Positions 38,427 to 58,923 of a stretch of 64,000 nucleotides of DNA are shown here, piece after piece (within the stretch, counting starts at the first letter, position 1; every line of letters starts with the position of its first letter). This stretch comes from Nitrososphaerota archaeon (GTDB lineage Archaea > Thermoproteota > Nitrososphaeria > Nitrososphaerales > Gagatemarchaeaceae). The stretch is from NCBI GenBank assembly GCA_027887005.1, contig JAPCJI010000001.1:62001-126000 (forward strand), written 5' to 3'. Made by a program: the position numbers and the translations under genes. The notes beneath the pieces were generated by a model. The model was given only the letters and a program-made list of their open reading frames with translations. It did no database searches and had not been told where the DNA came from.

Positions 38427-38891
38427 TTATGCTTTGGTCGTCAGCAAAGCGTCGACCTGAGCGTTCCTCTCTTCATCGACTACAATCCTCAGAGGAACCC
38501 CATGGCGCAGGTACAGGATCAAGGATGCGCCCTTGGGGACGCCAAGATCCTCTAGTTCGTCGATATTCGTAAGTACTTCCCTCGTCCTATTGGCCTTCGC
38601 CTTGTAATCCTCCATCACTTCGATCATGAGTTCCAGGGTGCCAACTTTTGATTCCTTTGTGTTGACCATGATCATCCCCACCTTCTTCCACCCGGTCTCT
38701 TTCATCTTTCCTAGGTTCTTCCCGTGGGGTTCCTTTTCCAATATCCGCATTAGGTCGCCGACTTTTACTCCGTAAAGGTCGCATTCCCTCTCATAATGCA
38801 GGAGGAGGGTTTTCAGATATGCCGTAAGACTCTGCATTGATTCGAATTTCACGAGTCCGGGAAGAGGAAGAGGTTGAACTTCCTGCATCAT
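38427..38891 (-). CDS. 154-residue protein, locus-A copy of a paralogous pair
   Basis: A soluble 154-residue protein. It aligns by eye along most of its length with the 154-residue protein at 58459: Y-L-K-T-L-L-L-H-Y-E-R-E against Y-L-K-E-L-L-D-T-Y-Q-R-E, and G-A-S-L-I-L-Y-L-R-H-G-V-P against D-A-T-F-L-L-Y-L-R-G-G-I-P. ATG 38891 follows a strong reverse-strand TATA (ttaaatataa, 38913-38922) by ~26 bases. One copy sits beside each pilus locus. Function unknown. Confidence 0.65.
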   Translation of the reverse strand: MMQEVQPLPLPGLVKFESMQSLTAYLKTLLLHYERECDLYGVKVGDLMRILEKEPHGKNLGKMKETGWKKVGMIMVNTKESKVGTLELMIEVMEDYKAKANRTREVLTNIDELEDLGVPKGASLILYLRHGVPLRIVVDEERNAQVDALLTTKA

Positions 38892-39195
38892 GTTCCTAAT
38901 CCACAATCTGGATTATATTTAAGGGTAGGTTGACTAACTGGCAGGCAAGTCTAGACTTGGCGTTGTTCTTTTCTAATAGGCCTTGCCCCAAATAGTCGAA
39001 CTGTTGTTCTGCAGACGATACGAGACCGTCCATACCCTCAGGAAGGCGCCTAGACGCGTAAAAGGAAACTCGTTTGGAGGAATGAGAAAAAAGGGAGTTC
39101 ACATCCCTATTCCCATACAGGCATAACTTCCCCTCTTGGAATCGGCATGTTCGGATATCTGGGTCCCTCCCCTTGGTTGAATCTGGTGATACGCG
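38892..39195. other. Divergent intergenic region
   Basis: It holds the leftward TATA (38913-38922) and the upstream region of the small membrane gene at 39196. A T-rich tract on the reverse strand near 39088-39095 could end a leftward transcript. I see no further gene. Confidence 0.45.
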
Positions 39196-39471
39196 GTGAA
39201 GCTGGTTAAGGACTTCGCATTCGGAGCGCTGTATCTGGTCAGCGGGATATACTCGGTCGGTTTCAGCATGGCTCTGACGGGTGCGACGAAGGCCCTAAGT
39301 GGCCGCACCGCGTTCGTTCCGGTTCCTGACGGCCTCTTCCCGTACGAGGTTCTGCTTTTCGGGCTGTTCGGTGTGGTTTTCCTTGGGGCTTCCCTCTACC
39401 ATTTCCGAATGGGTTTTCGCTCGGTTTCAACCGGGACAGCCGAGTACAGCTCGCGTCTGCCGGTCAACTAA
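39196..39471 (+). CDS. Small two-helix membrane protein
   Basis: A 91-residue protein with two helices (about residues 8-28 and 50-68) separated by a polar loop, and a polar C-terminal tail. GTG start. It lies between the two pilus loci. No family recognised. Confidence 0.5.
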   Translation: MKLVKDFAFGALYLVSGIYSVGFSMALTGATKALSGRTAFVPVPDGLFPYEVLLFGLFGVVFLGASLYHFRMGFRSVSTGTAEYSSRLPVN

Positions 39472-39588
39472 GGCAGGCAAGCGCTCAAGGGGTCGAGTCG
39501 AACCAGAGGAGACACCTAGTCTCTCCGACCACTGGGATTGAGCCTGTAGGGTCGTGGAGTGTACAAACTCAAGAGAAGGAAGGGGCGT

Positions 39589-40023
39589 CTATTGGGCTGA
39601 GCCAGCGAAGAGGACTTCGGCACCGTTTCCTAGGGCGACCGAGCCAACGATCTGGGTGTCAGGAACAGCGTGGAGGAATCCAGGGGTCGTGCAGGTAACT
39701 GTAGCGCTATTACCCCCATGAAGATTACCCGTAACTATGCCCGCAGCGCTTAGGTAATTCCCGCCGAGGAATGCCATAGTGCAGGTCCCTGTGATTGCGA
39801 CATCAGCGCTGCCCGAATTCCGCAGAGTCAAGGTGCAAACCTCAGGCGTTCCGGAACATGCAACCACGCCCGCTGAAACCTGAGCAGTGCTCGTGAACGT
39901 TCCCATGAGGCCGAAGACGAATCCGGCGATAGCGGTTGCTGCTACCAGGGTTATTGCGATGAGTATCACAGTTGCCAAGACAGGGGAAATCGCCCTCCTA
40001 CCATGATGCCGTGTAAGGCGCAT
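39589..40023 (-). CDS. Type IV pilin, 144 residues (interlocus copy 1)
   Basis: The signal H-H-G-R-R-A-I-S-P-V-L-A-T-V-I-L-I-A is the classical archaeal pilin motif, followed by a ~20-residue helix and G-F-V-F-G. ATG 40023 gives 144 residues, the same length as the neighbours at 40880 and 41486; an earlier ATG at 40050 is possible. A TATA-like box (ctaatat on the reverse strand, about 40049-40055) and the operator-like box at 40062-40089 lie upstream. Its C-terminal part differs from the other two, so it may be a different subunit. Confidence 0.85.
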   Translation of the reverse strand: MRLTRHHGRRAISPVLATVILIAITLVAATAIAGFVFGLMGTFTSTAQVSAGVVACSGTPEVCTLTLRNSGSADVAITGTCTMAFLGGNYLSAAGIVTGNLHGGNSATVTCTTPGFLHAVPDTQIVGSVALGNGAEVLFAGSAQ

Positions 40024-40061
40024 TTGAGTTCTGAGGTAGAGATTTCCCATATTAGCAGTTG

Positions 40062-40089
40062 TGGAGCCTGAATCTGTTTCTCCAGTCAA
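40062..40089 (-). promoter_or_regulatory. Operator-like box upstream of the pilin at 39589
   Basis: Matches 41962-41989 upstream of the pilin at 41486 at 24 of 28 positions without gaps; the shared core is aatctgtttctc. Both copies sit ~40 bases upstream of the start and just before the TATA. This is the typical place for an activator site. Confidence 0.55.
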
Positions 40090-40117
40090 GGAATCCTTAC
40101 CGGCACCCACTGCCTGC

Positions 40118-40357
40118 TCAGATTGGAATATGTCTGAGGGTCTTTCGTTTCCATGTTTGCAGCTTGCTGTCGAGCGGGCCGTTGGCGACCCCTACCTCAT
40201 TGATTCCGTGAAGGATCGAGTCCAATACCTGATCGTGGAGGCCCTCCTCTACGATGACGTCGATTAGGTAGTTTGCTCTCCCTTGCGGCGTCTTGGCATC
40301 GAGAGCCTTTAGTAGCTTGTCCTGCATCCTCTTGGTCAGTATCTTCCTTCTTGGCAT
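40118..40357 (-). CDS. Small basic protein, unknown function
   Basis: A 79-residue protein with a basic start (M-P-R-R-K-I-L-T-K-R-M-Q) and a helical remainder (A-N-Y-L-I-D-V-I-V-E-E-G-L). TATA-like ctaaacgg lies ~30 bases upstream on the reverse strand. It is next to the pilin at 39589 and may be a regulator, but no domain is clear. Confidence 0.5.
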   Translation of the reverse strand: MPRRKILTKRMQDKLLKALDAKTPQGRANYLIDVIVEEGLHDQVLDSILHGINEVGVANGPLDSKLQTWKRKTLRHIPI

Positions 40358-40520
40358 GTGCTTGTCCTCTACGATGGTGCCCCGTTTAGCCAAGCAACGA
40401 CTCTGCTGATTGTGCGAGGATGTGTGTATGGGCTTGTTTCGGGTTGTTCTTGGCGTCCTTTCAGCTTCCACTCGGCATATTCCGCAGAATCGCGCCTGGT
40501 AGTGGGCAAAAGGCGCTGTT

Positions 40521-40697: not shown

Positions 40698-40816
40698 ACC
40701 CAAGGATTGGCTCGCCTGACTTGCGCCTGACTCGATAATGAACACTTGCTCTATAGAGGGTGGCCTGGAACTATCCGAAATGACAAAGAATTGTCTCTTT
40801 CAAATCATTAAATGAG

Positions 40817-40879: not shown

Positions 40880-41314
40880 TTATGGGAAGGTTCCCGTGAA
40901 TGGGACAGAGGCCCCATTGGACAGCGAAATCGAGCCTGTGAACGCTGAGCCGTGTGTCGGAACTACCGCCGCCGTCATTGTACATGTAGCTGGGGTAGTT
41001 GCTCCTGCTGTGGCTGTGACTCCTCCGCAGGCGTTTCCTGTGTAGGTCACGCCGCCGTATTTGATGCTAGACCCTACTGTGTTTGCGTTTGAGGTGCCGC
41101 TGTTGAGCAGGTTGATGGTGCAGACCGTATTCGCTACGGCGGTGCATCCTACGACCTGTGCACTGACCTGTGCCGAGCTCGTGAACGACCCGAAGAGGCC
41201 GAAGACGAATCCAGCGATGGCTATGGCTGCGATGAGTGTGATCGCTATCAGGATCACGGTCGCTAGGACTGGTGAGATGGCTTTCCGCTGTTTGCCGTAC
41301 TTCGTTATCTTCAT
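40880..41314 (-). CDS. Type IV pilin, 144 residues (interlocus copy 2)
   Basis: Signal K-Q-R-K-A-I-S-P-V-L-A-T-V-I-L-I-A-I-T-L, then an alanine/isoleucine-rich helix and G-F-V-F-G-L-F-G. The C-terminus ends in S-I-S-L-S-N-G-A-S-V-P-F-T-G. It differs from copy 3 only in patches around residues 6-9, 57-63, 84-88 and 113-120, presumably exposed parts of the mature subunit. The TATA (ttattaaat, 41338-41346 reverse) gives a near-leaderless mRNA. It is a major-type pilin. Confidence 0.88.
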   Translation of the reverse strand: MKITKYGKQRKAISPVLATVILIAITLIAAIAIAGFVFGLFGSFTSSAQVSAQVVGCTAVANTVCTINLLNSGTSNANTVGSSIKYGGVTYTGNACGGVTATAGATTPATCTMTAAVVPTHGSAFTGSISLSNGASVPFTGTFP

Positions 41315-41485: not shown

Positions 41486-41920
41486 TTATGGGAAGGTTCC
41501 CGTGAATGGGACAGAGGCCCCATTGGACAGCGAGATTGACCCAGTGAATGCGGAACCTGAAGCTGGGACTGGAACATTGGTCATTACGCACGTAGCTGGG
41601 GTAGTTGCTCCTGCTGTGGCTGTGACTCCTCCGCAGGCGTTTCCTGTGTAGGTCACGCCGGCGAACCTGATGCTAGACCCTACTGTGTTTGCGTTTGAGG
41701 TGCCGCTGTTGAGCAGGTTGATGGTGCACGATGATAGTGTTGTCGTTGTGCATCCTACGACCTGTGCACTGACCTGTGCCGAGCTCGTGAACGACCCGAA
41801 GAGGCCGAAGACGAATCCAGCGATGGCTATAGCTGCGATGAGGGTGATGGCGATGAGGATGACTGTTGCTAGGACTGGTGAGATGGCTTTCCTATTTTTT
41901 CTGCTGTTGACGATTTTCAT
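41486..41920 (-). CDS. Type IV pilin, 144 residues (interlocus copy 3)
   Basis: Signal K-N-R-K-A-I-S-P-V-L-A-T-V-I-L-I-A-I-T-L and the same helix, length and C-terminus as copy 2; differences are clustered patches. ATG start, with TATA-like ttttaaag (about 41949-41956, reverse) and the operator-like box at 41962-41989. It is probably a structural pilin that is assembled by one of the two ATPase/platform pairs. Confidence 0.88.
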   Translation of the reverse strand: MKIVNSRKNRKAISPVLATVILIAITLIAAIAIAGFVFGLFGSFTSSAQVSAQVVGCTTTTLSSCTINLLNSGTSNANTVGSSIRFAGVTYTGNACGGVTATAGATTPATCVMTNVPVPASGSAFTGSISLSNGASVPFTGTFP

Positions 41921-42058: not shown

Positions 42059-42370
42059 TTGGTGACCGTGGTCGGCGTATCACGTCCCCGGACCAGTGGC
42101 AGTTATGTCACAAAATCCGGTAAGAAGGCATACCGGGGGAACAGAAAGCACTGGTATGTGTACTTCTACGACGACGATGGCAAGTTCAGTAAGAGAAGGA
42201 TAAACCAAGTACAGGTGCCCTACTACGGATCGCTTATCAGGAGGAGGAAGACCTACCTCTGCCCGAAATGCGGGACCAAGTTCCGTTCGTTGCAGGATTC
42301 GTGCCCAAAGTGCGGCGCCAAAGCGACCAAGGCGGTGAGACGGCCCGGACCAACGATCAGACGATTCTAA
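42059..42370 (+). CDS. Basic zinc-ribbon protein
   Basis: A 103-residue protein. It is basic throughout (K/R-rich), with a middle part reading K-H-W-Y-V-Y-F-Y-D-D-D-G-K and a C-terminal zinc ribbon (C-P-K-C-G-T-K-F, then C-P-K-C-G-A-K). It may bind nucleic acid. TTG 42059 or GTG 42062 is the start; the unusual repeated promoter box lies just upstream. It stands next to pilus locus B on the same strand and could regulate it. Confidence 0.6.
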   Translation: MVTVVGVSRPRTSGSYVTKSGKKAYRGNRKHWYVYFYDDDGKFSKRRINQVQVPYYGSLIRRRKTYLCPKCGTKFRSLQDSCPKCGAKATKAVRRPGPTIRRF

Positions 42371-43300: not shown

Positions 43301-44965
43301 ATGGAGCAAATGCGTGCCTCCCGAAAGAGGAAGGGGGTAGCAGGGATATTCGTGGCGTTGATTCTATTCGCCGTCATCTTCACAGCAGGAGCCAACTACT
43401 TCCTCTTCGTCAACCAGGCCACGCTCGGGACGAACCAGGCCAACGTAATACGGCAGGACGCCCTGCTGCAGGAGCGCCAAGAGAACCTGGCATTGAACGT
43501 GGTTTTATGGGGGGCCAGCACGCTTGTTCTCTCTGCAGTAAATACAGGGGGGTCTCCAACTTCAATATCATCAATCTATCTGGTCGACGGTACGGGAAAG
43601 ACGATCAACCCGGGCCCCGTCGGCACGAACATCTCTGCCTCATATTGGCCCCTTTCGCTTAATGTCGGGGCGTCGACTAACCGCAATTCTGCATGCATAG
43701 CTGGCATGAGTGGATGCAACATTGCCCTGACAGGGTACTCGTATACATCTGGCACCGTCCTTGTCAAAGTCCTGACTGGGAGAGGGAATGTATTCTCTGC
43801 ACGATTTCCACCGCAGATCAGCGGGGGCGTCGGCAGCGATGCGATTGTGGTAACAATGGTCGCAACACCGACTCCGCCTTTGACAGAGGTTTTCACTTGT
43901 ACCGGTTGCGTGACCCTCACCGTTACTGCCTATAATTTCGCCTCAAGTTCCGTGATCGGTGCGTTTCTCAGCCCGGCTGTGCCCTTCGTTGGAAGGAGCG
44001 GAACGGCCTCCCTCTCTGGCGGCAGCTGCGGCGCGCCCTTCCCTAGTAGTACAATCTCCGCGTACTCGGGCTCCGGCAACGCGCCCTCTATCACGTTCAC
44101 CTGCACCTACAATGCGCAGACAGGGGCAGTAGGTGGCTTCGCCTCATTGTCGGGGTACGTCCAAGGCACCCTGAACGGCATAATAACATCCTCGTCGGAA
44201 GCGGTGTCGAACAACATTCAGATAGGCGCGAACGCGAACGTCCCTACCCAGGGAGCTTTTTCTGCCAACTTCTTCTTCTCCAAATTCAGCTCGTGCCAGA
44301 ATGGCCCTTCAGGGTCCATCGGATCTTACACGTATTCGTCTGCTTGCACCACCGCCGTGACCATGCCTCCTTCCAATCCCGCTAGCCTCCCCAGCGCGGC
44401 GACCGTAAGCGCGGGCGGCAATTACTACGTCGCGTTCTATGCTCAGATAACGAACAACTACCCATCGACCCTAGCTGTCCTCCAATACACCTTCCTCCAG
44501 CTCGATTCTTCTCACCCTCCACCCAATGTAGGCAACGAGACGGACTTCTGGCTCGTCGGCGCCGCGAGCACCTACAATGCTCAGCTCTCCTACTACCCTA
44601 GCTACTGCAACGGCGGGGGGTGCGGAGGCAACAAACTACCTACTCTTGCTCCCTATGCGGGCAACGAGGTAACCTGTGCTGAGACAGGTCCCCTCTGGAC
44701 CCCATCTACAAACTGCATTGACATCGCCTACGAGCAGACCGTGACGCTCGCGCTGGCGGCCTGCGGATTCGGGACCACCTATTGGGATTGGGGAGGCTCC
44801 CAGTACGCAAACCACTTCGACCACAGCAATGGATGCACAAGTTCTGCTCCTGGCTTTTCCTCGAGCGGCGCCGCGAATGTCCTAACCCTTGTAATCTGTT
44901 ACCTCTACCAGGGCCAAATGTACACCCAGGCCATCCAATTCCAGGGTATTGCGGTGACTCCGTGA
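43301..44965 (+). CDS. Pilin-signal surface protein, module-only form (554 residues)
   Basis: Signal K-R-K-G-V-A-G then a hydrophobic helix ending Y-F-L-F-V-N-Q. The remaining ~510 residues form the module shared with the next two genes: a first beta part (to ~170), a C-T-G-C-V-T-L-T-V-T-A-Y-N-F part, and a final W-D-W-G-G-S-Q-Y domain with several cysteine pairs. Unlike its neighbours it has nothing after the module. It may be a minor pilin or base subunit. ATG start; 16 bases to the next gene. Confidence 0.75.
   Translation: MEQMRASRKRKGVAGIFVALILFAVIFTAGANYFLFVNQATLGTNQANVIRQDALLQERQENLALNVVLWGASTLVLSAVNTGGSPTSISSIYLVDGTGKTINPGPVGTNISASYWPLSLNVGASTNRNSACIAGMSGCNIALTGYSYTSGTVLVKVLTGRGNVFSARFPPQISGGVGSDAIVVTMVATPTPPLTEVFTCTGCVTLTVTAYNFASSSVIGAFLSPAVPFVGRSGTASLSGGSCGAPFPSSTISAYSGSGNAPSITFTCTYNAQTGAVGGFASLSGYVQGTLNGIITSSSEAVSNNIQIGANANVPTQGAFSANFFFSKFSSCQNGPSGSIGSYTYSSACTTAVTMPPSNPASLPSAATVSAGGNYYVAFYAQITNNYPSTLAVLQYTFLQLDSSHPPPNVGNETDFWLVGAASTYNAQLSYYPSYCNGGGCGGNKLPTLAPYAGNEVTCAETGPLWTPSTNCIDIAYEQTVTLALAACGFGTTYWDWGGSQYANHFDHSNGCTSSAPGFSSSGAANVLTLVICYLYQGQMYTQAIQFQGIAVTP
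44063..44137 (+). repeat. 75-base block identical to 45762-45836
   Basis: Within the third domain of the 554-residue protein, 75 bases are identical with 45762-45836 in the next gene while flanking sequence diverges. This suggests recent gene conversion or recombination. Confidence 0.7.
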
Positions 44966-44981: not shown

Positions 44982-47900
44982 TTGACCCCAAATATCACGT
45001 CTAGAGGACACCAACACCGACGGCATCGGCGCGGCATCTCGGGCATACTAGCGGCTGTGATACTCTTCGCAATGATATTCACCACTGGTTTCGGTTATCT
45101 CCTCTTTGTCACCCAGGGGAGTCTGTCGATAAGCCAAGCGAACGCAGCCAGGCAAGACGCCCTTCTGCAGGCGGGCCAAGAGGCGTTGCTTTCGAAGGTC
45201 GTGGTGGCTGGGGGAACTACTCTCGTGCTGTCAGTGAACAACACAGGGGGCACGCCCGTCTCCTTGTCCAGGATCTACATTGATGATAACACAGGAAAGA
45301 TGATCACTCCGCCCGGTTTCATGGGGCCAGGAGGGGGGACTAACGCAACGGCGAATTGGCCAATCTCGCTCCCGGTCGGCCAGTCGACGAATACACTCGG
45401 AGGATGTGTCGCCGGGAAGACGGGCTGCAACATCGCTCTAACCAGCTACACCTATGCAGGAGCATCCGTCTCGGTCGAGATCGTTACATCAAAGGGGAAC
45501 ACGTTTGGCACCCCTTATCCTCCCATTAGCACACTCACATCGAAGGGCAACGCACTGGTCGTCAAGATGCTCGCCACTCCTTCACAGACACTGTCTTGCA
45601 CGGGCTGTGTGACTGTCACGGTCACGGTGTACAACTACGCCCCCTCCTCGGTGACGGGTGTCGCGCTTAGCCCGTCCCCTCCTACGGCTCAGGTGACCGG
45701 CACCGCGAGCGTTACTGGGGGCAGTTGCCTCGCACCTGTTCCCAGCAACACGATTGTTGCCTACTCGGGCTCCGGCAACGCGCCCTCTATCACGTTCACC
45801 TGCACCTACAATGCGCAGACAGGGGCAGTAGGTGGCCTCGCAACTTTCTCTACGAGCGCCATCGGGACCCTGAATGCAAAAGGAGTGAGCTCGGCCGTGG
45901 CTATGTCAAACAACATCCAGATCGGAGGCAACTCCAATGTCCCAACCCAGGGCGCCTTTGCAGTGAACTACTTCTTCCTGAAGTTCAGCGCCTGCCAGTA
46001 CGCCCCTTCAGGTTCCGTCGGATCCTACACATACTCGTCCCCCTGCGTCACGACGCCTGTGACGATGCCTCCCACGTCCCCCTACTCACTGACCAACGGG
46101 AACTACATCAGCGCCATCAGTGACTACTACGTTGCCTACTACGTTCAGGTTACGAACGTGTTCAACGCGACCCTCCCTATCCTCGAGTATAGCTACCTCT
46201 TCATGGACCCAAGCGTATCCACCGAAGCCTTCAACTTCCTTGTCGGAACTGCTACGAACCCGCAGGTACCCTACTATCCCAACTACTGCGGCAGCATCGG
46301 GTGCGGAGGCGACAAACTTCCCCTCTTCACACCGTACGCTGCGACGGCCGCGACTTGCGCCGAATCACCGCCGAACTATAATCCTCCCTCTCCTACTCAG
46401 TGCATAGACGTGGCCCCTGGGCAAACGGTGACTCTCACCTTCGCGGCCTGCGGCTACGGAGCGTCCAACTGGGTGTGGGGCGGAACTCCCTACGCGCAGC
46501 AGCTTGACCACAGCGCCGGGTGTATCACGACCCCTCCGAATTTCAAGGGCGCCGTGCCGGAAGGGCAGACGCTCGGAGTCGTCTTATCCTATCTCTACAA
46601 GAACCAGGCCTATTCCCAGGTGATGCCCTTCGAAGGGCAGACACTTACGAACGTGCGAACTAGTTCGACCGCGGTCGCGTGCTCTCCATCCCCAGTCGCG
46701 GTTAACGCCCCCTCTACATGCACGATGACGGTCACGGACACAGCATTCGGAAACCCCTTCACGCCAACAGGCATGGTGACGCTTACTCAGACTCCTGGCA
46801 CAGGCGGTACCATCAGCAACGGGGGCACCTGCACCCTGAGTGGAAGCGGTGCAACTGCGACCTGCGTGCTCACCTTTACCCCGGCGCTGGGTCAGGAAAT
46901 CACGAACATGCTGAATGCCACCTACCCCGGCGACACGAACCACTCGCCAAGCTGGGGAATAACCTCCCTAACCGCGACCCAGCGATCCACGTCGACGACG
47001 GAGATTTGCTCACCATCGTACGCGGTTCCGAACACCCCTACCAACTGCGTCACCACCGTGACAGATAATTCGCCGGGGAACGCAGTCACCCCCACTGGTA
47101 CAATCAGCTTCACTCAGAGCCCTCTATCTTCGGGTACCTTCACTCCATTGACGACCTGTCCCCTCAGCCAGGTCTCGCCTGGCGTCGCTAGCTGCCCCAT
47201 CACCTACACCCCGAACCCCAACTTCCAAGGCACGGTGACGGTCACTGGTTCCTATGGCGGCGACACCGACCACGCCGTCAGCTCCAACGCTGCTCAAGTG
47301 AAGTGGGCCCGGTCGACCTTGACCTCCGTATCATGCGCAAGTCCGGTGGTAGTCGGAAGTCCATCCGCGTGTACCCTGACCGTGACCGACACGTACACAG
47401 GAATTCCTATCACGCCAACTGGGACGGTGACACTCTCCCAAAGTCTGCCCTCCACTGGAACCTTCAGCAACGGGGGCTCCTGTGTACTCTCGGGCGGTTC
47501 ATGCGCTCCTTTCACGTTCACTCCCGGCTCAGGACAGGTGTGGCCGCCGTCTGTTACGATAACTGCCTCCTACCCAGGCGACGCGAACCACATTCCAAGC
47601 TCAGGGTCTGCTTCGATACATGTCAACGGGGCTTCACCAATGATCGCTACGCTGGTTTCAAGCAGCGGGACCATCTCCATAGGAGGTTCAGCCACAGACC
47701 AAGGCACCTTCTCGAATGGATACGGCACTTTGACCGGTACCCTGGTCTTCAGGGCGTACACTTCCTCTGCATGCAGCAGCGGACTCTCCTTCACCAGCAA
47801 CACCATCACCGTTAGCGGAAACGGGCCGTATACCTCCAACCCGTACACTCCTTCACTTCCGGGTAGTTATCCTGCCCATTACTACTATCAGGCAACCTTC

Positions 47901-48929
47901 ACCGACACCGACGGGAACAACATCGGCTTCACCAGCGCATGCGGAGGCGCCGGAGAGACCCTTACGGTCAACAAGGCTTCGCCAACGATAGCCACTACGG
48001 TCTCCTCTGGCGGGACCATCTCCATAGGAGGTTCAGCCACCGACCAAGGCACCTTCTCGAATGGATACGGCACTTTGACCGGTACCCTGGTCTTCAAGGC
48101 CTATAGTGCCTCTTCCTGTCTCAGCGGGCTTTCATTCACAAGTAACACCATAACGGTGAATGGCAACGGACCGTACACCTCGAATTCGTTTGCTCCGAAT
48201 CCTGCAGGAACCTACTACTATCAGGCAACCTTCACCGACACCGACGGGAACAACATCGGCTTCACCAGCGCATGCGGAGGCGCCGGAGAGACCCTTACGG
48301 TCAACAAGGCTTCGCCAACGATAGCCACTACTCTCTCAGCAACGACCATCCAGGCAGCGGGCTCTGTGTTCGATCGGGCTACGCTCTCTGGTACTTTCGG
48401 CTCGGCAGGAGGCACGGTCCAGTATGAGTACTTCACAGGGAGCTCGTGCCCTGGCTCCCCCAGCAACGTCGGCTCAGCTGTGACAGTGAGCGGCGGCGCG
48501 GTGCCGAACTCTGTTTCACAGACCTTCAATACCGCGGGACTCTACGGCTGGGAAGCGGTCTACAGTGGCGACGCGAACAACAACGGCGCTACTAGTTCTT
48601 GCGAGCCGCTTTCCGTGCTGAGCCTCACAGTCAGTCCCACTTCAGTTTCGGCCAGCGGCACCAGCTCCCAGCGCAGAGTAACGTTGCAGAGTTCGAGTGC
48701 CGGCTACGACACTAGTACGACCTATAATTATTGTATGAGCACGAGCGCAGTCTCAATAACCTGTGTCGGCGGGACAAGCGGCACATTCACAGGAACTGGA
48801 GCAACAGGGACGATTCCAAGCGGAACAAGGTTCACCGTGCCGCACAACCAGGCAACAGGCACCTACTACGTCATCATCTATACAGGCGCTACCATCTGGA
48901 TTACCGCAACCTTGACGGTGACACCCTAA
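44982..48929 (+). CDS. Giant pilin-signal surface protein with Ig-like repeats (1315 residues)
   Basis: Class III signal H-R-R-G-I-S-G then a ~22-residue helix. Residues to ~560 are the module shared with the 554- and 897-residue neighbours. From ~565 the chain has three Ig-like units (each with S-P-x-x-V-x-x-P-S-x-C-x-x-T-V-T-D), two tandem ~112-residue units (T-I-S-I-G-G-S-A-T-D-Q-G-T), one further unit and a short C-terminal domain. No C-terminal membrane helix. TTG start. Predicted as a long, externally displayed pilus or cell-surface adhesin. Confidence 0.75.
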   Translation: MTPNITSRGHQHRRHRRGISGILAAVILFAMIFTTGFGYLLFVTQGSLSISQANAARQDALLQAGQEALLSKVVVAGGTTLVLSVNNTGGTPVSLSRIYIDDNTGKMITPPGFMGPGGGTNATANWPISLPVGQSTNTLGGCVAGKTGCNIALTSYTYAGASVSVEIVTSKGNTFGTPYPPISTLTSKGNALVVKMLATPSQTLSCTGCVTVTVTVYNYAPSSVTGVALSPSPPTAQVTGTASVTGGSCLAPVPSNTIVAYSGSGNAPSITFTCTYNAQTGAVGGLATFSTSAIGTLNAKGVSSAVAMSNNIQIGGNSNVPTQGAFAVNYFFLKFSACQYAPSGSVGSYTYSSPCVTTPVTMPPTSPYSLTNGNYISAISDYYVAYYVQVTNVFNATLPILEYSYLFMDPSVSTEAFNFLVGTATNPQVPYYPNYCGSIGCGGDKLPLFTPYAATAATCAESPPNYNPPSPTQCIDVAPGQTVTLTFAACGYGASNWVWGGTPYAQQLDHSAGCITTPPNFKGAVPEGQTLGVVLSYLYKNQAYSQVMPFEGQTLTNVRTSSTAVACSPSPVAVNAPSTCTMTVTDTAFGNPFTPTGMVTLTQTPGTGGTISNGGTCTLSGSGATATCVLTFTPALGQEITNMLNATYPGDTNHSPSWGITSLTATQRSTSTTEICSPSYAVPNTPTNCVTTVTDNSPGNAVTPTGTISFTQSPLSSGTFTPLTTCPLSQVSPGVASCPITYTPNPNFQGTVTVTGSYGGDTDHAVSSNAAQVKWARSTLTSVSCASPVVVGSPSACTLTVTDTYTGIPITPTGTVTLSQSLPSTGTFSNGGSCVLSGGSCAPFTFTPGSGQVWPPSVTITASYPGDANHIPSSGSASIHVNGASPMIATLVSSSGTISIGGSATDQGTFSNGYGTLTGTLVFRAYTSSACSSGLSFTSNTITVSGNGPYTSNPYTPSLPGSYPAHYYYQATFTDTDGNNIGFTSACGGAGETLTVNKASPTIATTVSSGGTISIGGSATDQGTFSNGYGTLTGTLVFKAYSASSCLSGLSFTSNTITVNGNGPYTSNSFAPNPAGTYYYQATFTDTDGNNIGFTSACGGAGETLTVNKASPTIATTLSATTIQAAGSVFDRATLSGTFGSAGGTVQYEYFTGSSCPGSPSNVGSAVTVSGGAVPNSVSQTFNTAGLYGWEAVYSGDANNNGATSSCEPLSVLSLTVSPTSVSASGTSSQRRVTLQSSSAGYDTSTTYNYCMSTSAVSITCVGGTSGTFTGTGATGTIPSGTRFTVPHNQATGTYYVIIYTGATIWITATLTVTP
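45762..45836 (+). repeat. 75-base block identical to 44063-44137
   Basis: Partner of the block in the preceding gene; see that entry for the comparison. Confidence 0.7.
47667..48331 (+). repeat. Tandem repeat inside the 1315-residue gene
   Basis: Two neighbouring Ig-like units (about 333-345 bases apart). The block 47881-47998 equals 48214-48331 base for base (118 bases). The near-identity indicates a recent expansion of the repeat region. Confidence 0.75.
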
Positions 48930-48930
48930 G

Positions 48931-51624
48931 ATGAACCTCGGAAACCCCAACGGCTACCAGCGGCGGCGAAGAGCAGTGGCAAGCATACTGGCCACGATGA
49001 TCATGTTCGCGATGCTCTTTAGTGGCGGGGTCGGCTTCCTGCTCTTCATCAACCAGAACTCCCTCATCAACAACCAGGCGAGCGCGGGCAGGCAGGCAAC
49101 CCTCCAACAGGCATCCCTTGAGCACCTCGTCGTGGGTGTCAAACTATCGTCAGTGGCTGATCCGTGGGGGCAGATGGGCGACCTGGGGCTCACCCTGAAC
49201 AACACCGGCGGGGCAACAGTGACCGTCCTGGATGTCTACGTAACGAACGTGGCGAAAGGTCAGCCCGTCTCGAACTCCCAGGTCACGCCAGGTTCTCACT
49301 ATCTTAGTGTTCTTGGAACGGGGGCTCAGATGGGCGACCTGAACGTCACCCTGCCTCTTTCGATAAGCATGGGCGCCTCAACGAGAACAATGAGCGGATG
49401 CATCTCCGGGAAGACAGGCTGTGATCTCGCAATCAGCAAGACGTCCTATCCATATGTGTCCGGGACGACGGTGTTGGTGAGCGTTCTCACATCGACTGGC
49501 AACATCTTCTCCGCCCAGTATCCGCTACCCGGCGGCACGCCCGGGATCGGGAGCAACGCCCTAGTCGTCAAGTTGATCGCCGCCCCTCCTCAGACTCTGA
49601 CGTGCAGCGGGTGCGTGACTGTGACGGTCACTGTCTACAACTACGCCACATCGCCAGTAACGGGCGTCGCTCTTGACCCATCCCCTCCCACAGCCCAGGT
49701 GACAGGCACAGCCAGCATCACGGGGGGCAGCTGTCTAGCGCCCGTCCCCAGCAACACGATTACTGCGTACTCCGGCTCAGGCAGCGCGCCCTTCATAACA
49801 TTCACGTGCACCTACAATGCCAATACCGGCGCGGTAGGCGGCTTCGCTTCGTTCTCCGGCTCGGCGATAGGCACCCTCAACTCAGTCTCTGTCTCCTCCG
49901 CTCAGGAGGTCTCCAACACCATCCAGATCGGAGGCACCGTCAGCGTACTCAACCAGGGGCCATTCTCAGCGAATTCCTTCTTCTTCAAGGACACCTACTG
50001 CTACCAAAAGGGCGGCATCATCTTTGTCTCGCCGTGCACGCAGACCCCCTCCGGCACTCTCAGCATTGGCACCCTTCCCAGCGCTAACCCTCAGAACGGC
50101 AGCGCCGACTACTACGTAGCCTACTACGTCCAGGTCACCAACAACTTCAACACGACCGTGCCCTTGCTGCAGTATTCCTACTTCCAGACCGACCCCTCTT
50201 TGGGCGGAGAGTCGGACTTCTATCTCGTGGGAGCCGCTTCATCGTACAGTGCCTCGAGCTGCACAAGTGGGGTGAGTTGCTACTTCCCCGATTACAGCAA
50301 GTTCACCCCCACCCTAACCCCCTACGGTGGGGACGCGATCACATGCGCAGAGACCCCTCCCAACTACAATCTTCCTTCTTCGACAAACTGCATCGACATC
50401 GCTCCCGGACAGACGGTGACACTCACCTTCGCTGCATGCCGCTTCGGTACTGCGAACTGGAACTGGGGATTCAGTCAGTACGGTCGAGCATTCGACAACC
50501 CCCTCGGCTGCACCCCTCAGAATCCGCCGAACTACCAGACCCCAGAAGCAACCTACCTGAGCATAGTACTCTCCTTCATGTACAAGGGTCAGGTCTACGA
50601 CCAGCAGATCCCATTCCAGGGAGAAACAGTCCTGGGGGGGAAGACCAACAACGTGACACCCTGCAATACTGAGGTTCTCGCCTACTGCGGGACCGTGTTC
50701 TATACTCAATACTCTGGAGCCGTGGGATACTTCAATTTCGTATACAAACCGGGGACGCCCACTCCCTTTGCAATCCCTACTCCACCAGTTGTGATAAACA
50801 ACAACCTGCCGCACGGCTCAGACGGTGTTGTATTCAATCCTCAGGACCACATGATACTGACCGGGACAAACCAACCCTACAACGGTTTCAACGAGGTCAA
50901 CCCGAACACGGGTGTAGCCACCACTTATCCCTCGACGATCTACTCATACAATCTCATGGTTGACTCGGCTGGGACAAAGTTGTGGATGGACGGAGACCCA
51001 GGCGCAGGCAGCCTAGCATGGGTCCCACTTAGCGCGGCAAATCCATCGGTCGGGGCCCCCACAACTCTCTCGCTTTCGGGTGATGACGTCAACCTGAATA
51101 CAGTGATATTCGTAGATCCGACCCACGTGTACTACACTGCTGAGCTTGGGACGCGCTTCGAGGGAATGACAGGCCATGTCGGCAGCATCGACACAGCGAC
51201 AGGAGTGACGACCTGCTTCAAGGATGCTGGAGGGGCTTGCCATACCTTCACTGGGGTACACGGGGGGTCTTATGACCCATTCACGCAGGACCTTATGGTC
51301 TATGGTTGGAACGTCATCAATCAGATTAATCCCACCACCGGACCCCTCGGATGGACACTCGTGGCCAGCGAGACAGTGTCCGCTCTTACCCCGAGCGCGG
51401 GGAATGTTTTCGACCAGGGCGCAGTTGATGGCTTTGGCCACCTCTTCCTTTCCTGGGCCAGTGATACTGGGGCAATCTACTTCGAGGATTACTCAAGTGG
51501 GTCAGTCGGCATCGGCAACTTCCACTACATTACCCCTCAGACCCTGAAGAACAACCTTGGAGCTACAGCTTTCTTCGACCTCGACGACCTCGCCCCTATA
51601 GTTGGCCCCGGTTCGCAGGGATAG
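48931..51624 (+). CDS. Giant pilin-signal surface protein with propeller-like C-terminus (897 residues)
   Basis: Class III signal R-R-R-R-A-V-A-S-I-L then a hydrophobic helix. The first ~560 residues share the module of the two previous genes. The last ~330 residues read like a beta-propeller: repeated G-x-D-G-V-V-F-N-P-Q-D, M-V-D-S-A-G-T-K-L-W, F-V-D-P-T-H-V-Y-Y and I-D-T-A-T-G units. Such folds often bind sugars or proteins. ATG directly after the previous gene's TAA. It is another variant of the pilus-displayed protein. Confidence 0.75.
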   Translation: MNLGNPNGYQRRRRAVASILATMIMFAMLFSGGVGFLLFINQNSLINNQASAGRQATLQQASLEHLVVGVKLSSVADPWGQMGDLGLTLNNTGGATVTVLDVYVTNVAKGQPVSNSQVTPGSHYLSVLGTGAQMGDLNVTLPLSISMGASTRTMSGCISGKTGCDLAISKTSYPYVSGTTVLVSVLTSTGNIFSAQYPLPGGTPGIGSNALVVKLIAAPPQTLTCSGCVTVTVTVYNYATSPVTGVALDPSPPTAQVTGTASITGGSCLAPVPSNTITAYSGSGSAPFITFTCTYNANTGAVGGFASFSGSAIGTLNSVSVSSAQEVSNTIQIGGTVSVLNQGPFSANSFFFKDTYCYQKGGIIFVSPCTQTPSGTLSIGTLPSANPQNGSADYYVAYYVQVTNNFNTTVPLLQYSYFQTDPSLGGESDFYLVGAASSYSASSCTSGVSCYFPDYSKFTPTLTPYGGDAITCAETPPNYNLPSSTNCIDIAPGQTVTLTFAACRFGTANWNWGFSQYGRAFDNPLGCTPQNPPNYQTPEATYLSIVLSFMYKGQVYDQQIPFQGETVLGGKTNNVTPCNTEVLAYCGTVFYTQYSGAVGYFNFVYKPGTPTPFAIPTPPVVINNNLPHGSDGVVFNPQDHMILTGTNQPYNGFNEVNPNTGVATTYPSTIYSYNLMVDSAGTKLWMDGDPGAGSLAWVPLSAANPSVGAPTTLSLSGDDVNLNTVIFVDPTHVYYTAELGTRFEGMTGHVGSIDTATGVTTCFKDAGGACHTFTGVHGGSYDPFTQDLMVYGWNVINQINPTTGPLGWTLVASETVSALTPSAGNVFDQGAVDGFGHLFLSWASDTGAIYFEDYSSGSVGIGNFHYITPQTLKNNLGATAFFDLDDLAPIVGPGSQG

Positions 51625-51908: not shown

Positions 51909-53942
51909 ATGTCCAGCGATGGAAACGAGGAGCGCAAGGGTTTCTTCAGACGCCTATTCAGGCGGAACAAGGAGGAATTAGAAGCCCCACCCCTGGAGCC
52001 AGCTGTGATGTCAAAGCCCACGCCCGCTTCTCAAGTTCCACTCGGAGCGGTGGCCCCTCAAGCGACGAGTTCCACACCGGTCAATCCCCGTCCTGCTCCT
52101 GGCCCATCTGTCCAGACCGGCGGAGCTCGGGAAGCCCAATCACCAAACCGTGACATTTCGCCAACGGAGGCAAGAATCCCCCCCGTGAAGCCGATCGAAG
52201 CTGAGCCACAGACTCCTGCGAAGCCAGAGCCCAAACAGGCGTCCCAGAACATGCAGGCGTCGAGGCAACAGACCGTACAAGTTCAGAAACCTGTTCCGAA
52301 GCAGCCCACACCCGAGGATCGCACTGAGGAGGAAGAGGCCACCATGGCAAAGAGATTCAGATTCCTCAAGAACGTCAAAGTAAGGTTCCCGTTCTCCGGT
52401 ACAACGATTCCCCCCTCCTGGAAAGTCCTAGAGAGATACCCTGTCAACAGCCCCTTCGCCTACGCAGTCGTGGCTCAGAGTCCCCTCCTGGCGAGGCGGT
52501 ACTTCATTGACGAGGTCCCCCTCACGAAGACCGAGGCCGCGATATACTCCTACCTGATCGACGCCCTCGAGGCGGAGCTTACAGTTCCAAGGGAACAGAT
52601 CAACCCAAGACAGTACTTCGCCGACCAGGCAAGGAAGATCCTGCTGAAGTACAACATCCGCGTCCCCGCCGCATCTTGGTCAAAGATCATCTACTTCGCA
52701 GAAAGAGATCTAGTCGGGTTCGGCGTGATGGACCCCTTGATGCGGGACCCGAACATTGAGGACATATCGATAGACGCTCTCGGAAAACCGATCTTCATCT
52801 ACCACAAGAGCCACGAGAGCCTCGAGACAAACATCACGATAAGCGACGATGAGGTGCTGGACAACCAGATCACTCGCCTCTCCCACATGGCAGGGAAGCA
52901 CGTCTCCACCGCGTTCCCTGTCGTCCAGGGAACTCTCCCAGGTAGGCACAGGCTCATCGCTACGTTCAGGCGTGAAGTTTCCCCCCAGGGCAGCTCCGCC
53001 ACCATCAGGAAATTCAGGGAGGACCCGTTGACCATCGTTGACATGCTCAACCTGAACCTGCTCGACCACAGAATGGCAGCCTACACCTGGTATTTGATGC
53101 AGAACAGGGCGACGGCTTGTGTGGTTGGTTCGACTGGGGCCGGCAAGACGACGCTGTTGAACGCACTCCTAACCCTGACTAGGCTAAACACGAAGCTCGT
53201 GACAATCGAGGAGGTCCAGGAAATTAACGTCCCCCACCTCAATTGGACCTCCCTCGTGTCTAGAGAAAGCTACGCGGCGACGGAAGAGAAGGCAGGCGAA
53301 GTAGGTCTGTTCGAGCTCGTAAAGGCCGCCATGAGGATGAGGCCTGATATCCTCTGTGTCGGCGAAGTGAGAGGAGAGGAGGCATATGTGCTATTCCAGG
53401 CAATCTCCACGGGCCACGGAGGCCTTTCGACTGTCCACGCAGACGACGCAGCGTCGGCCCTGCAGAGGCTTGTATCCGCTCCTATGAACGTCCCGAGGGC
53501 CTTCATACCATTCCTCGACCTCGTTTTCGTAGTCAGAAGGATCTCAGTCCCGGCCCCAGGGGGAGGCTTCAAGGCCGTGAGAAGGATCGTCTCGGTGGAC
53601 GAGGTGGTCAGCGACCAGGAGGTAATGAAGGCGTTCCGATGGGACGCACGCACCGACACTTTCAAGCCTAGTTTCGACAAAAGCACCAAGCTCGAGCGCA
53701 TCTCACGAGACAACGGCATCCCAATGGGTGACATACTGAAGGAGATCGAAAGGCGCGCCCTCATCCTCCGGTGGATTCAGCAGAAGGGAATCAGGAACTT
53801 CAAGGAACTCTCGCCGATACTCGAGCTTTACGTGGCAAGGCCTGAGGAAGTGTTCAACACCGCCGCCAACGAGCTCGAAGCGAAAGGGGTCGCGGTCGCT
53901 GAGATCATGGGCGAATACGGCCACGGCGGTCAGCGCCCGTGA
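51909..53942 (+). CDS. Type IV pilus assembly ATPase with proline-rich extension (locus B)
   Basis: A 677-residue secretion ATPase. Residues ~1-150 are low-complexity and rich in P, A, Q, E and S with no fold visible. The rest matches FlaI/TadA ATPases: Walker A (G-S-T-G-A-G-K-T, 407-414), the I-E-E-V-Q-E-I-N box, Walker B (I-L-C-V-G-E-V-R-G) and a His box (S-T-G-H-G-G-L-S-T-V-H). It powers pilin assembly. TATA-like ggttataag (about 51876-51884) suggests its own promoter, ~285 bases after the giant genes. Confidence 0.92.
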   Translation: MSSDGNEERKGFFRRLFRRNKEELEAPPLEPAVMSKPTPASQVPLGAVAPQATSSTPVNPRPAPGPSVQTGGAREAQSPNRDISPTEARIPPVKPIEAEPQTPAKPEPKQASQNMQASRQQTVQVQKPVPKQPTPEDRTEEEEATMAKRFRFLKNVKVRFPFSGTTIPPSWKVLERYPVNSPFAYAVVAQSPLLARRYFIDEVPLTKTEAAIYSYLIDALEAELTVPREQINPRQYFADQARKILLKYNIRVPAASWSKIIYFAERDLVGFGVMDPLMRDPNIEDISIDALGKPIFIYHKSHESLETNITISDDEVLDNQITRLSHMAGKHVSTAFPVVQGTLPGRHRLIATFRREVSPQGSSATIRKFREDPLTIVDMLNLNLLDHRMAAYTWYLMQNRATACVVGSTGAGKTTLLNALLTLTRLNTKLVTIEEVQEINVPHLNWTSLVSRESYAATEEKAGEVGLFELVKAAMRMRPDILCVGEVRGEEAYVLFQAISTGHGGLSTVHADDAASALQRLVSAPMNVPRAFIPFLDLVFVVRRISVPAPGGGFKAVRRIVSVDEVVSDQEVMKAFRWDARTDTFKPSFDKSTKLERISRDNGIPMGDILKEIERRALILRWIQQKGIRNFKELSPILELYVARPEEVFNTAANELEAKGVAVAEIMGEYGHGGQRP

Positions 53943-55654
53943 GCTTCAAGTTAATCCTGCCCAGGGGCAAGTCGAAAGAGAAGATCAAGCTCACCTTCTT
54001 CGACAGGTTAACACAAGCCTCGTTTCGGATCTTCGCCTGGCCCGCCACTAGGCTAAGCCGCTCGGTACCCCTACTCAGGGATAACATCCTGAAGTCGAAC
54101 CTCAGAATAACACCAGAGGGCTTGATCTCCGTGGCCCTCTTCTCAACCGCCCTTACCGCAATAATCGCCGGGGTCCTGATCTACGTTGGTTTTGCCTTCT
54201 TCCACATTCCCTACTTCCTGGCGCTCATCGCCGCTGTCCCCCTGGTGTTCACTCTGGTCATAAATGGCCCCAAAATCAGTGCGTCATCTCGTGGAGCAAG
54301 CATAGATACCGAGCTCCCCTTCGTGATCGGATACATGTCGGTGCTGGCAGGGGGAGGCGTTTCCCCTCTCTCGACACTCAGGAGGATCTCGGAAATGAAG
54401 CTATTCCCAGCCGCTCGAAGGGAGGCGAAGAGGGTCCTACTTGAGGTTGAAGTCTTCGGACACGACCCTATCACCGCGATTGAGATCGTAGCACGCTATA
54501 ACCCAAACAAGCGCTTCTCAGAATTCCTGTTCGGGTACACGGCAATCCTCAAGAGCGGAGGAAACTTCATCGCCTATGTCCAGTCTAAGCTCAGGGATAC
54601 TATGGAGGCCAAGGCAAACCAGGTGAAGAGGTCTGCCGACACGACGGGAACCATGGCAGAAGCGTACCTCACGGTCACAGTCATCCTAGGAATGGTGCTC
54701 TATACCCTGTACATGATTCAGACACTCATCAGCAACAACCTCAATGGGCTCACTAATCTTTACATCTTTGCCTTTGTCCTCGTTCCTGTAATCTCTGCTG
54801 GATTCATCTGGCTCATAGACGCCGTCCAGCCAAAGTGGCCCTACGTGGACTACAGGCCCTACAAATGGTTCCTAGTCACCGCGCCTATTGCAGCGCTGTT
54901 CTTCTTCCTGCCTCTCCCACTCCATTTGTACCAGAAGACCTCCGGAACCCTGATCATAGGTGTGTCAATCCCGGCCTTCCTGGCGATCAGATACGGCAGA
55001 GAGAGGAGAGGACTCGAGCGCATGCTCCCCGAGTTCATCCGAGACGTAGCCGAAGGCAGGAAGACTGGACTCTCTCCCGAAGTCGCGATTGAGAGGCTCG
55101 GAACGAGGCAATACGGGATCCTCTCAAAGCACGTAAGAAAGATGGGAGCCCAGCTATCGTGGGGTGTTGCCCTCTCGAAGGTCATATCGACTTTTACCGG
55201 CGCTGTTGGGAGCTGGATCACGAGAGCTGTCGGAACATTGCTTATCGAGGTTGTCGACGTCGGTGGTGGGACGATCAGGAGCTTCTCAGAGATGGCCGAG
55301 TTCACAAGGAGCATCAACGATATGGAATCGGACAGGCGGTCGGCCCTCAGGCCCTTCGTCTTTATCACCTACATCGCGGGAGTGATGGTCATCATTACAA
55401 CGTTCATCATGGTGTACCTGCTGTCAGCTCCTTCGGCGACCGGTTTCGCGACCTCAACCGTTCCAACGGTTTCACCCACCGTCATCGACACTCTTCTGAC
55501 GACCGCGGTCTTCGACGCATTTGTCATTGGGATAGTCGCAGGCAAGATGGGAGAGAGCGGAATCTCGGACGGATTCAAGCACGCCATCGCCCTGGTCGTC
55601 GTAAGCCTGCTAGCGATATTCGTCGCAAGGGGCTTCATTGCCATCCCCGTCTAA
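53939..55654 (+). CDS. Type IV pilus platform protein, FlaJ/TadC-type (locus B)
   Basis: A 571-residue membrane protein, GTG start overlapping the ATPase stop (GTGA). Two T2SSF-like halves are present (P-F-V-I-G-Y-M-S-V-L-A-G-G-G-V and G-G-G-T-I-R-S-F-S-E-M-A) with several flanking helices. It is similar throughout to the locus A protein. It forms the membrane platform on which the ATPase acts. Confidence 0.92.
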   Translation: MSFKLILPRGKSKEKIKLTFFDRLTQASFRIFAWPATRLSRSVPLLRDNILKSNLRITPEGLISVALFSTALTAIIAGVLIYVGFAFFHIPYFLALIAAVPLVFTLVINGPKISASSRGASIDTELPFVIGYMSVLAGGGVSPLSTLRRISEMKLFPAARREAKRVLLEVEVFGHDPITAIEIVARYNPNKRFSEFLFGYTAILKSGGNFIAYVQSKLRDTMEAKANQVKRSADTTGTMAEAYLTVTVILGMVLYTLYMIQTLISNNLNGLTNLYIFAFVLVPVISAGFIWLIDAVQPKWPYVDYRPYKWFLVTAPIAALFFFLPLPLHLYQKTSGTLIIGVSIPAFLAIRYGRERRGLERMLPEFIRDVAEGRKTGLSPEVAIERLGTRQYGILSKHVRKMGAQLSWGVALSKVISTFTGAVGSWITRAVGTLLIEVVDVGGGTIRSFSEMAEFTRSINDMESDRRSALRPFVFITYIAGVMVIITTFIMVYLLSAPSATGFATSTVPTVSPTVIDTLLTTAVFDAFVIGIVAGKMGESGISDGFKHAIALVVVSLLAIFVARGFIAIPV

Positions 55655-56498: not shown

Positions 56499-56577
56499 AA
56501 AAGCTTGGAAAACGCACGGGACAATATAAAGAAGGGTCAAATATACACTAAGATACCGTCATTGAGAGGGCACAGTC

Positions 56578-57111: not shown

Positions 57112-57211
57112 GCTACACCTTCGAGTTTGCTTCCGAGTCCGTGAAGTCCGAACCGGAATGTTTGGCATAAGGGCAGGAAATCTTAACTCGTTTTCTGCTG
57201 TCGGAACTCCA

Positions 57212-57544
57212 ATGATAAACGGGCAAAGGCGTCGGGACAGTTCAGAAATAATGTTCGCTATCCTTAGGTCAGTGCAGACAGGTCGGCGAAAGACGAAGGT
57301 GATGTACGAGGCCAATCTCAACCTAAAACAATTGAACACATACCTCGACATGCTCGCATCAAACCAAATGGTTGTCTTCCAGCCAGCGGGAAGGATCTTC
57401 CAGGCGACCGAAAGAGGGAAGGCCTTCGTGAAGGCGTACGAGCACTATAAAGAAACGACCGAGTTGCTCAGGGAGCAGCAATCTGCCCTAGGCGTTTTCT
57501 TCACCAAACAAACGAGTGAGCCTGTTTCTCCTCGGACTTGGTAG
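57212..57544 (+). CDS. HTH_45-type winged-helix regulator (copy 2)
   Basis: A 110-residue member: I-M-F-A-I-L-R-S, then K-T-K-V-M-Y-E-A-N-L-N-L and a wing with R-I-F-Q-A-T-E-R-G. ATG 57212 is preferred over 57158 because a cttaact TATA-like box is ~28 bases upstream and the length then fits the family. Its 3' end overlaps the opposite-strand copy by 44 bases. Confidence 0.75.
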   Translation: MINGQRRRDSSEIMFAILRSVQTGRRKTKVMYEANLNLKQLNTYLDMLASNQMVVFQPAGRIFQATERGKAFVKAYEHYKETTELLREQQSALGVFFTKQTSEPVSPRTW

Positions 57545-57890
57545 CCGTTCCAAGCAGCCCGAGCAGCTCTCCGGCCCCTGAAGGTTCCTTCCCCATGAGG
57601 CTCAACCTGAGCCCATCGTACACCTGAAGGATCGACTTTCCTCTGCCTGTAAGCTTGTAGGTGCTCCTTTTGCCCCCCTGTTCCTCCTTTTCAATCAGCC
57701 CCTTCCCTAGCAGGTAATCGAGGTAGGCCGCAAGGACCTTCCAGCTCATGTTCGCCTTGTATAAGATATGAGTCGGCTTGGTCGGACCTTCAGAGAGAAC
57801 GCCCAGGATGTCGCAGACCATCTCCATCGGCGACCGTCTCGCCTGACCGAGGGTCTCTCCAGGGAGCCCGAATGTTGCCGTGTTACTCAT
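57501..57890 (-). CDS. HTH_45-type winged-helix regulator (copy 3)
   Basis: A 129-residue member: M-V-C-D-I-L-G-V, then P-T-H-I-L-Y-K-A-N-M-S-W-K-V-L and a basic wing (K-R-S-T-Y-K-L-T-G-R-G). ATG 57890 is chosen with TATA-like cttaacta ~30 bases upstream. The C-terminal tail has an acidic/Gly stretch. It is convergent with copy 2 and their coding ends overlap. Confidence 0.8.
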   Translation of the reverse strand: MSNTATFGLPGETLGQARRSPMEMVCDILGVLSEGPTKPTHILYKANMSWKVLAAYLDYLLGKGLIEKEEQGGKRSTYKLTGRGKSILQVYDGLRLSLMGKEPSGAGELLGLLGTATKSEEKQAHSFVW

Positions 57891-57975
57891 ATCTCTGTAA
57901 AAGGCATGGAACCTAGTTAAGTATTGCTGTGCATATTCCAAATATCTACTCCCATTCGGCCCGTTTTCCAGACAA

Positions 57976-58359
57976 CTACTTCTTATCGGGTGCGGTTTTC
58001 AGCAAAGTAGGCAGCGGGCGGGGGATCTTCAGGCCCTCAGCGACGAGGTAGACTAGGCCGTAGATTCTCTCATATACGGTCGCCAGGACGAGCGGAGGGT
58101 TGGTGTCGTCAGGAGCTGCCAGGGCGCCCTGGATTTCGTCCTTCGTGCCAGTCAGAGTCGTTATCCCGGAGACCAATATCCTGGCCAGTTGTGGTTGGCT
58201 CGTAAGCTCGAGCGTGAAGCTGAGTAGGAGAGATGCGGGGCTTCGCTCGCGCTCGGAAAGCGAAACATTCAGGCCATAATTTGAGGCTGAGTTTTCGGTG
58301 ACCTTGTCAGAAAGTCGGGCGCCATCAATTCTTTCTATGAGAACGCCGATCTCGAGCAT
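57976..58359 (-). CDS. Soluble protein of unknown function
   Basis: A 127-residue protein with regular hydrophobic/charged alternation (E-I-G-V-L-I-E-R-I-D-G-A). A reverse-strand TATA region (cttaaatgttatattc, about 58383-58397) supports ATG 58359 over the longer frame. No family recognised. Confidence 0.5.
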   Translation of the reverse strand: MLEIGVLIERIDGARLSDKVTENSASNYGLNVSLSERERSPASLLLSFTLELTSQPQLARILVSGITTLTGTKDEIQGALAAPDDTNPPLVLATVYERIYGLVYLVAEGLKIPRPLPTLLKTAPDKK

Positions 58360-58458
58360 ACTACGCGCACGGCTCAAGAGAATATAACATTTAAGGGATT
58401 GTGGTCAAAATTCAGGCTCTGCATTCCTCACGTCAAGGACCACAAGAGCGCCAGCGGA

Positions 58459-58923
58459 CTAGACAGCCTTGAATTTCCCGTCGAACATGAACTTGGGAGG
58501 CCTTGTTTCGTTCATGTCTACGATTAACCTTTCAGGGATTCCGCCGCGGAGGTACAGCAGGAAGGTGGCGTCGTCTGGAATTGGGAGACCCTCTACCCCT
58601 TCGAATGCCTTTAGGACTTCTTCAGTCTTTACGACTCTCGGTTTCATCTCGTTTACTATCTGAAAAACGACCTCCATCCTCCCCTTCTCTGCGTCGGCCA
58701 TGTTGACGAACAGGGATCCGACCTTTGCCCACCCCTTCGAGATGATGACCTCCATGCCCTTCTGGCCCTCCGAGCGAAGCATCCCTCCGATGATATTGGA
58801 CGACTTGTCGTACTCGCGTTGGTACGTATCGAGAAGTTCTTTCAAGTAACGCCTGACGTCGTTCAGCTCGTAGAACCTTAGCACGCCGGAAACCATGCTC
58901 GTCCCCGTCTCAGGGATCAACAC
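58459..58923 (-). CDS. 154-residue protein, locus-B copy of the paralogous pair
   Basis: A soluble 154-residue protein matching the one at 38427 along most of its length. GTG start with TATA-like gttataac (about 58949-58956, reverse). It lies ~2.8 kb past locus B, as the other copy lies just past locus A. The two have diverged but keep the Y-L-K-x-L-L, W-x-K-V-G and L-Y-L-R-x-G-x-P positions. Role unknown. Confidence 0.65.
   Translation of the reverse strand: MLIPETGTSMVSGVLRFYELNDVRRYLKELLDTYQREYDKSSNIIGGMLRSEGQKGMEVIISKGWAKVGSLFVNMADAEKGRMEVVFQIVNEMKPRVVKTEEVLKAFEGVEGLPIPDDATFLLYLRGGIPERLIVDMNETRPPKFMFDGKFKAV

Follow-up and report, generated by a model that had tools for sequence, protein, structure and literature searches.

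The usual account of archaeal type IV pili names an ATPase, a membrane platform and pilins. The main text of a survey by Makarova, Koonin and Albers (2016, PMC4858521) adds uncharacterised cytoplasmic proteins of the pilus loci, names a coiled-coil family (arCOG07564) in another pilus subclade, and links a pair formed by a vWA protein and a GvpN-like ATPase to thaumarchaeal pilus loci. Here we analysed a stretch of 64,000 nucleotides from a Nitrososphaerota archaeon (contig JAPCJI010000001.1, positions 62,001 to 126,000; hereafter the window), which carries two pilus loci and, beside each, one gene of an unnamed protein family for which we use the working name FAM; a second coiled-coil gene is called COIL. 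The FAM family goes together with one class of type IV pilus machines in ammonia-oxidising archaea and related lineages, and probably helps to assemble these machines. It resembles the uncharacterised proteins of the survey in having no known domain and in being tied to one pilus class, but the paired FAM/COIL family is not described there, supplementary tables aside. Literature searches, which did not cover supplementary files, found no paper on the FAM/COIL pair, and the family is apparently new to the literature. The genes concerned are as follows.

34258-35850, plus strand: FlaI-type ATPase of pilus locus 1, with a T2SSE domain
35898-37562, plus strand: FlaJ-type membrane protein of pilus locus 1, with a T2SSF domain, placed in the FlaJ tree
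38427-38891, minus strand: FAM copy 1, 154 residues from ATG, the FlaJ-adjacent type without a COIL neighbour
51909-53942, plus strand: FlaI-type ATPase of pilus locus 2, with a T2SSE domain
53939-55654, plus strand: FlaJ-type membrane protein of pilus locus 2, with a T2SSF domain, placed in the FlaJ tree
58459-58923, minus strand: FAM copy 2, 154 residues with a GTG start, the COIL-linked type
59479-60303, minus strand: COIL, predicted as two long helices flanking four short strands; the true start is probably within the open reading frame

The sequence-only reading had pointed to both FAM frames and to their equal length and shared positions. Both frames exist, and their strand had to be corrected: the plus-strand frames at both positions are riddled with stop codons, and the genes lie on the minus strand. 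For copy 1, translation from a TTG that lies five codons further upstream would yield 159 residues. In BLASTP the two proteins share 41 of 128 positions (32%), with 73 of 128 similar (78.6 bits, E = 5e-24), and a search of the whole genome with copy 2 returned copy 1 at E = 2.2e-19 and no other match, giving two FAM copies in total. By this comparison the two are true paralogues. Their equal length is incidental and was discarded as evidence, because the relatives vary from about 147 to 227 residues owing to a lysine-rich linker. Searches of Pfam (E up to 10) and NCBIfam (E up to 1) returned zero families for either copy, in agreement with the earlier failure to recognise one; they gave no match to the archaellum accessory proteins ArlC, ArlD, ArlE and ArlX either, of which these libraries may not model all four. 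Both pilus loci are real, and each does have its own FAM gene, as first noticed: copy 1 follows its FlaJ gene at 0.9 kb and copy 2 at 2.8 kb, and the T2SSF model gives 4 domain matches in 2 genes of the whole genome, which are just these two FlaJ genes.

The linkage to pilus genes holds among the relatives. The fetched loci contain 78 FAM copies, and we based the linkage figures on the 42 that are flanked on either side by 9 kb or more of sequence; the 36 without such flanks (8 of which show FlaI/FlaJ) were set aside, including L067 and L068. The results showed that FlaI or FlaJ was present in the stretch for 33 of the 42 copies and pilin-like genes for 39, and that COIL lay on the same strand within 300 bp of FAM in 40. 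Among the 35 FAM loci of a scan with organism names, all of them thaumarchaeal, COIL came immediately before FAM in every one (35/35). The usual FAM type thus has COIL, rather than FlaI/FlaJ, as its most constant neighbour. In 16 control genomes, the genes for prefoldin alpha, prefoldin beta, seryl-tRNA synthetase and GrpE were found within 25 kb of a T2SSF match in 0 of 64 cases; in 10 of the same genomes, 7 of 13 FAM copies lay within 10 kb of such a match and 10 of 13 within 25 kb. Homologues lying mostly far from pilus genes, the pattern that would have spoken against the first proposal, were thus not what we found. Nine of the 42 copies have no FlaI/FlaJ in the stretch; for six of these the matching FlaJ lies on the same contig at a distance of 11 to 23 kb, and for three it is on another contig.

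We then counted FAM in 400 genomes of the order to which the window (family f1) and, in another family, Nitrosotalea belong, and found it in 94 with a profile of 31 relatives and in 98 with a broader profile of 37. Carriers include Nitrosotalea devanaterra, whose chromosome encodes a FAM and COIL pair (locus L139), Nitrosotalea bavarica, Nitrosarchaeum, Nitrosopumilus and one Nitrososphaeraceae genome. In genome G011, two FAM genes lie no more than 2 kb apart and in opposite orientation (L035:261-734 and L035:2463-3611). With a FlaJ profile, the best E-values of the 400 genomes fell into two groups separated by a gap between 1e-73 and 1e-98, and FAM tracks the stronger group: 82 genomes have both, 16 FAM alone, 21 FlaJ alone and 281 neither. 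The resulting odds ratio of 69 is not a probability, and any p-value drawn from these counts would be inflated, because the genomes share ancestry. For seven of the 98 FAM genomes the match is weak or fragmentary; when these are excluded, 77 of 91 carry the FlaJ class. Since at most three FlaJ candidates per genome were scored, some FlaJ absences are likely to be misses, for example in genome G138, where FlaI lies near FAM (locus L100). In 20 stretches from FlaJ genomes with no or weak FAM, three, all of family f13, hold a divergent FAM (E = 2e-6 to 7e-5), one of which sits 2.6 kb from FlaI; FAM was not found in the other 17, several of which are short contigs.

The FAM and FlaJ trees match. 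The FAM tree was built from 50 FAM rows picked by locus number to span all families. Four FAM copies lie beside FlaJ without COIL, namely window copy 1 and those of L121, L038 and L041, and in L038 and L041 the FAM gene starts 4 bp past flaJ, in the same orientation. The FAM tree unites these four copies (support 91/83, short of the starred level), and the FlaJ tree unites the FlaJ proteins of window locus 1, L121, L038 and L041 (98/96). The inner pairs, window with L121 and L038 with L041, are identical in both trees. Window copy 2 groups with L032, and so does the FlaJ of locus 2. A sister relation of the two window copies was rejected by the approximately unbiased (AU) test (p = 1e-9, for a pair chosen after the tree was seen). 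A recent local duplication is ruled out by this test together with the FAM tree, in which copy 2 goes with L032, L033 and L120 and copy 1 with L121. Judged from these trees, the separation of the two window copies is old. The first reading had proposed a dedicated partner of each pilus machine, and linkage, co-occurrence and matching trees support this at the gene level, binding aside.

Some results weigh against so close a tie. FAM and FlaJ are on different contigs in three loci, and L118, L126 and L130 are long contigs on which FlaI/FlaJ are not nearby and the remaining genes of the FAM neighbourhood are present. The FlaJ class occurs without a detected FAM in 21 genomes, and in the complete genome G037 (L321) FlaI, FlaJ and pilins are present and FAM is absent within 8 to 10 kb. 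Because such FlaJ-only genomes exist, FAM is not required by all machines of this class.

Taken together, we consider FAM to be a cytoplasmic, machine-specific accessory or assembly factor, such as an adapter or holdase, of one archaeal type IV pilus class (probability roughly 0.6). A cytoplasmic location is suggested because no membrane or export segment was seen when the FAM sequences were read by eye. On this reading, each of the two FlaI/FlaJ machines of the window's genome keeps a FAM copy of its own, long separated from the other, and FAM and COIL would combine into a small heteromer that acts as a holder at the cytoplasmic face of the motor. This holder may keep pilins or motor subunits ready for assembly, or dock them on FlaI/FlaJ; a copy-1-type FAM, which has no COIL neighbour, may act alone or share the single COIL, which is single-copy in this genome. 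We ranked the holder or docking action first because of the paired two-helix layout described below and because further small proteins share the cassette of FAM. That two small proteins accompany one pilus class across many families, and that each machine has its own paralogue, points to an assembly step absent from the usual picture of these pili. The pair also offers a testable handle in named ammonia oxidisers, among them Nitrosotalea devanaterra, and could mark this pilus class in environmental genomes.

Close behind the holder, because of the flaJ-FAM gene pairs, we place a possible though less probable reading in which FAM and COIL belong to the motor itself, as structural or regulatory components. 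They would form a collar or switch of cytoplasmic coiled coils on FlaI/FlaJ, with a role like that of the cytoplasmic accessory proteins of the archaellum and no chaperone action. The copy-1-type FAM that in L038 and L041 comes straight after flaJ in the same orientation, its course alongside FlaJ in the trees, and the common use of coiled-coil hairpins in scaffolds would all fit such a part. The usual FAM type, however, belongs to a separate cassette on its own strand, often several kb from FlaI/FlaJ.

The predicted structures bear on a more specific version of the assembly reading. AlphaFold modelled FAM copy 2 from 35 sequences with a predicted local distance difference test (pLDDT) score of 82 and a predicted template modelling (pTM) score of 0.72, giving a strand (13-17), a helix of 33 residues (20-52), a hairpin (65-74), a helix of 34 residues (78-111) and a second hairpin (120-136). 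The confident core of the COIL model, from 31 sequences, has a helix of 46 residues (24-69), four short strands and a helix of 57 residues (114-170). The order helix, hairpin or hairpins, helix is that of the beta and alpha subunits of prefoldin (GimC). In this predicted layout COIL is alpha-like, with four strands, and FAM is beta-like, with one hairpin; FAM differs in its extra N-terminal strand and C-terminal hairpin, and the genome of the window encodes ordinary prefoldin alpha and beta elsewhere. In a Foldseek search of 350,542 PDB chains, the top five matches of FAM were all prefoldin subunits. The models thus suggest a prefoldin-like topology for COIL and FAM, for which sequence and fold scores fall short of proof.

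Several of these scores tell against the likeness. The prefoldin matches of FAM in Foldseek have E-values of 0.12 to 0.29 and are not significant, and COIL reaches prefoldin alpha at rank 31 with E = 1.7. Among the 50 matches that VIA-align listed for FAM there are other coiled-coil hairpins and no prefoldin, nor is prefoldin listed for the COIL model. In hhalign, FAM or COIL against prefoldins gave E = 0.04-0.42; the control, prefoldin alpha against beta, was also missed (E = 0.064), and because this positive control failed, hhalign decides nothing on the link. The Pfam prefoldin models PF01920 and PF02996 (E up to 10) matched neither window FAM copy, and PF02996 was touched by 3 of 35 FAM members, at best with E = 0.012, so that membership of the prefoldin family by sequence is unsupported in Pfam and profile comparisons. 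For COIL, sequence searches of Pfam and the PDB gave no meaningful match. A paralogous relation between FAM and COIL was rejected (hhalign E = 0.017-0.021, not significant), and so was an identity of COIL as ESCRT-III (Snf7), to which no Pfam match was found; Snf7, GrpE and the N-domain of seryl-tRNA synthetase served as coiled-coil controls only. On the models, then, we regard as tentative, and slightly below the motor part, a second, pilus-dedicated prefoldin-like chaperone, in which an alpha-like and a beta-like subunit would bind cytoplasmic pilins or motor subunits and pass them to FlaI/FlaJ, with one beta-like copy specialised per machine.

The composition of the cassette bears on another explanation. 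In the window two further members accompany FAM copy 2 and COIL.

57976-58377, minus strand: up133, a conserved cassette protein of no recognised family, found in 57 of 74 annotated loci
58972-59418, minus strand: DUF5658 membrane protein (Pfam PF18902), between COIL and FAM copy 2, a position kept in relatives

In the 74 annotated loci, which leave out L098, L099 and the window duplicates L067 and L068, COIL was found in 64, a vWA protein in 56 and a MoxR/CbbQ-type ATPase in 53. This set is kept across families while gene order and strand vary strongly. The ATPase was matched by Pfam AAA_5 and CbbQ_C in L044, L139 and L103, and its partner by VWA models in the same three loci, above the curated cut-off in L139 only. 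The pair is present in most FAM loci, including these three and L034, L036 and L037, and it fits the vWA and GvpN-like ATPase pair that the survey's main text ties to thaumarchaeal pilus loci. FAM and COIL might be adaptors of this pair that touch the pilus only through it. We consider this doubtful: no vWA/MoxR pair was found in the stretches of the window, L032, L033, L039, L042 and L059, where COIL, DUF5658, FAM and up133 are kept, and it is also missing around the copy-1-type FAM. Since the pair belongs to the cassette in most families and is absent at the window copies, the comparison suggests that vWA/MoxR was lost from the cassette in the clade of the window. The pair is a neighbour of FAM and not a relative, as neither FAM nor COIL matches an AAA or VWA model. 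For up133, searches gave no family match, and a resemblance to SecB, seen by eye without search backing, is not claimed. Three winged-helix HTH_45 regulators lie near FAM copy 2 (57158-57544, 57501-57941 and 60819-61136), and HTH_45 occurs in 34 of the 74 FAM loci.

It is very improbable that FAM and COIL serve another role and sit by pilus genes through inherited neighbourhood alone, a view that could draw on the gene order common to related genomes and on the cassettes of G062, G067 and G082, which lie on contigs without FlaJ, since membership is constant under varying order and strand, FAM is missing from most genomes that do not have the FlaJ class, and the FAM paralogues follow their own FlaJ in the trees.

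The pilus loci of the window also contain pilin genes matched by Pilin_N.

39589-40110, minus strand: pilin (Pilin_N, PF07790)
40880-41314, minus strand: pilin (Pilin_N, PF07790)

The tandem pilins at 40880-41314 and 41486-41920 closely resemble each other. Very long, secreted-looking proteins are encoded within both pilus loci at 29150-34261, 43301-44965, 44982-48929 and 48931-51624; they have a pilin-like N-terminal hydrophobic stretch and repeat-rich bodies, and from these features look like pilus-borne adhesins. A small protein encoded between the pilins, at 42059-42370, gave zinc-ribbon matches; the main text of Makarova et al. (2016, PMC4858521) mentions arCOG06883, a family with a double zinc ribbon, for thaumarchaeal pilus loci.

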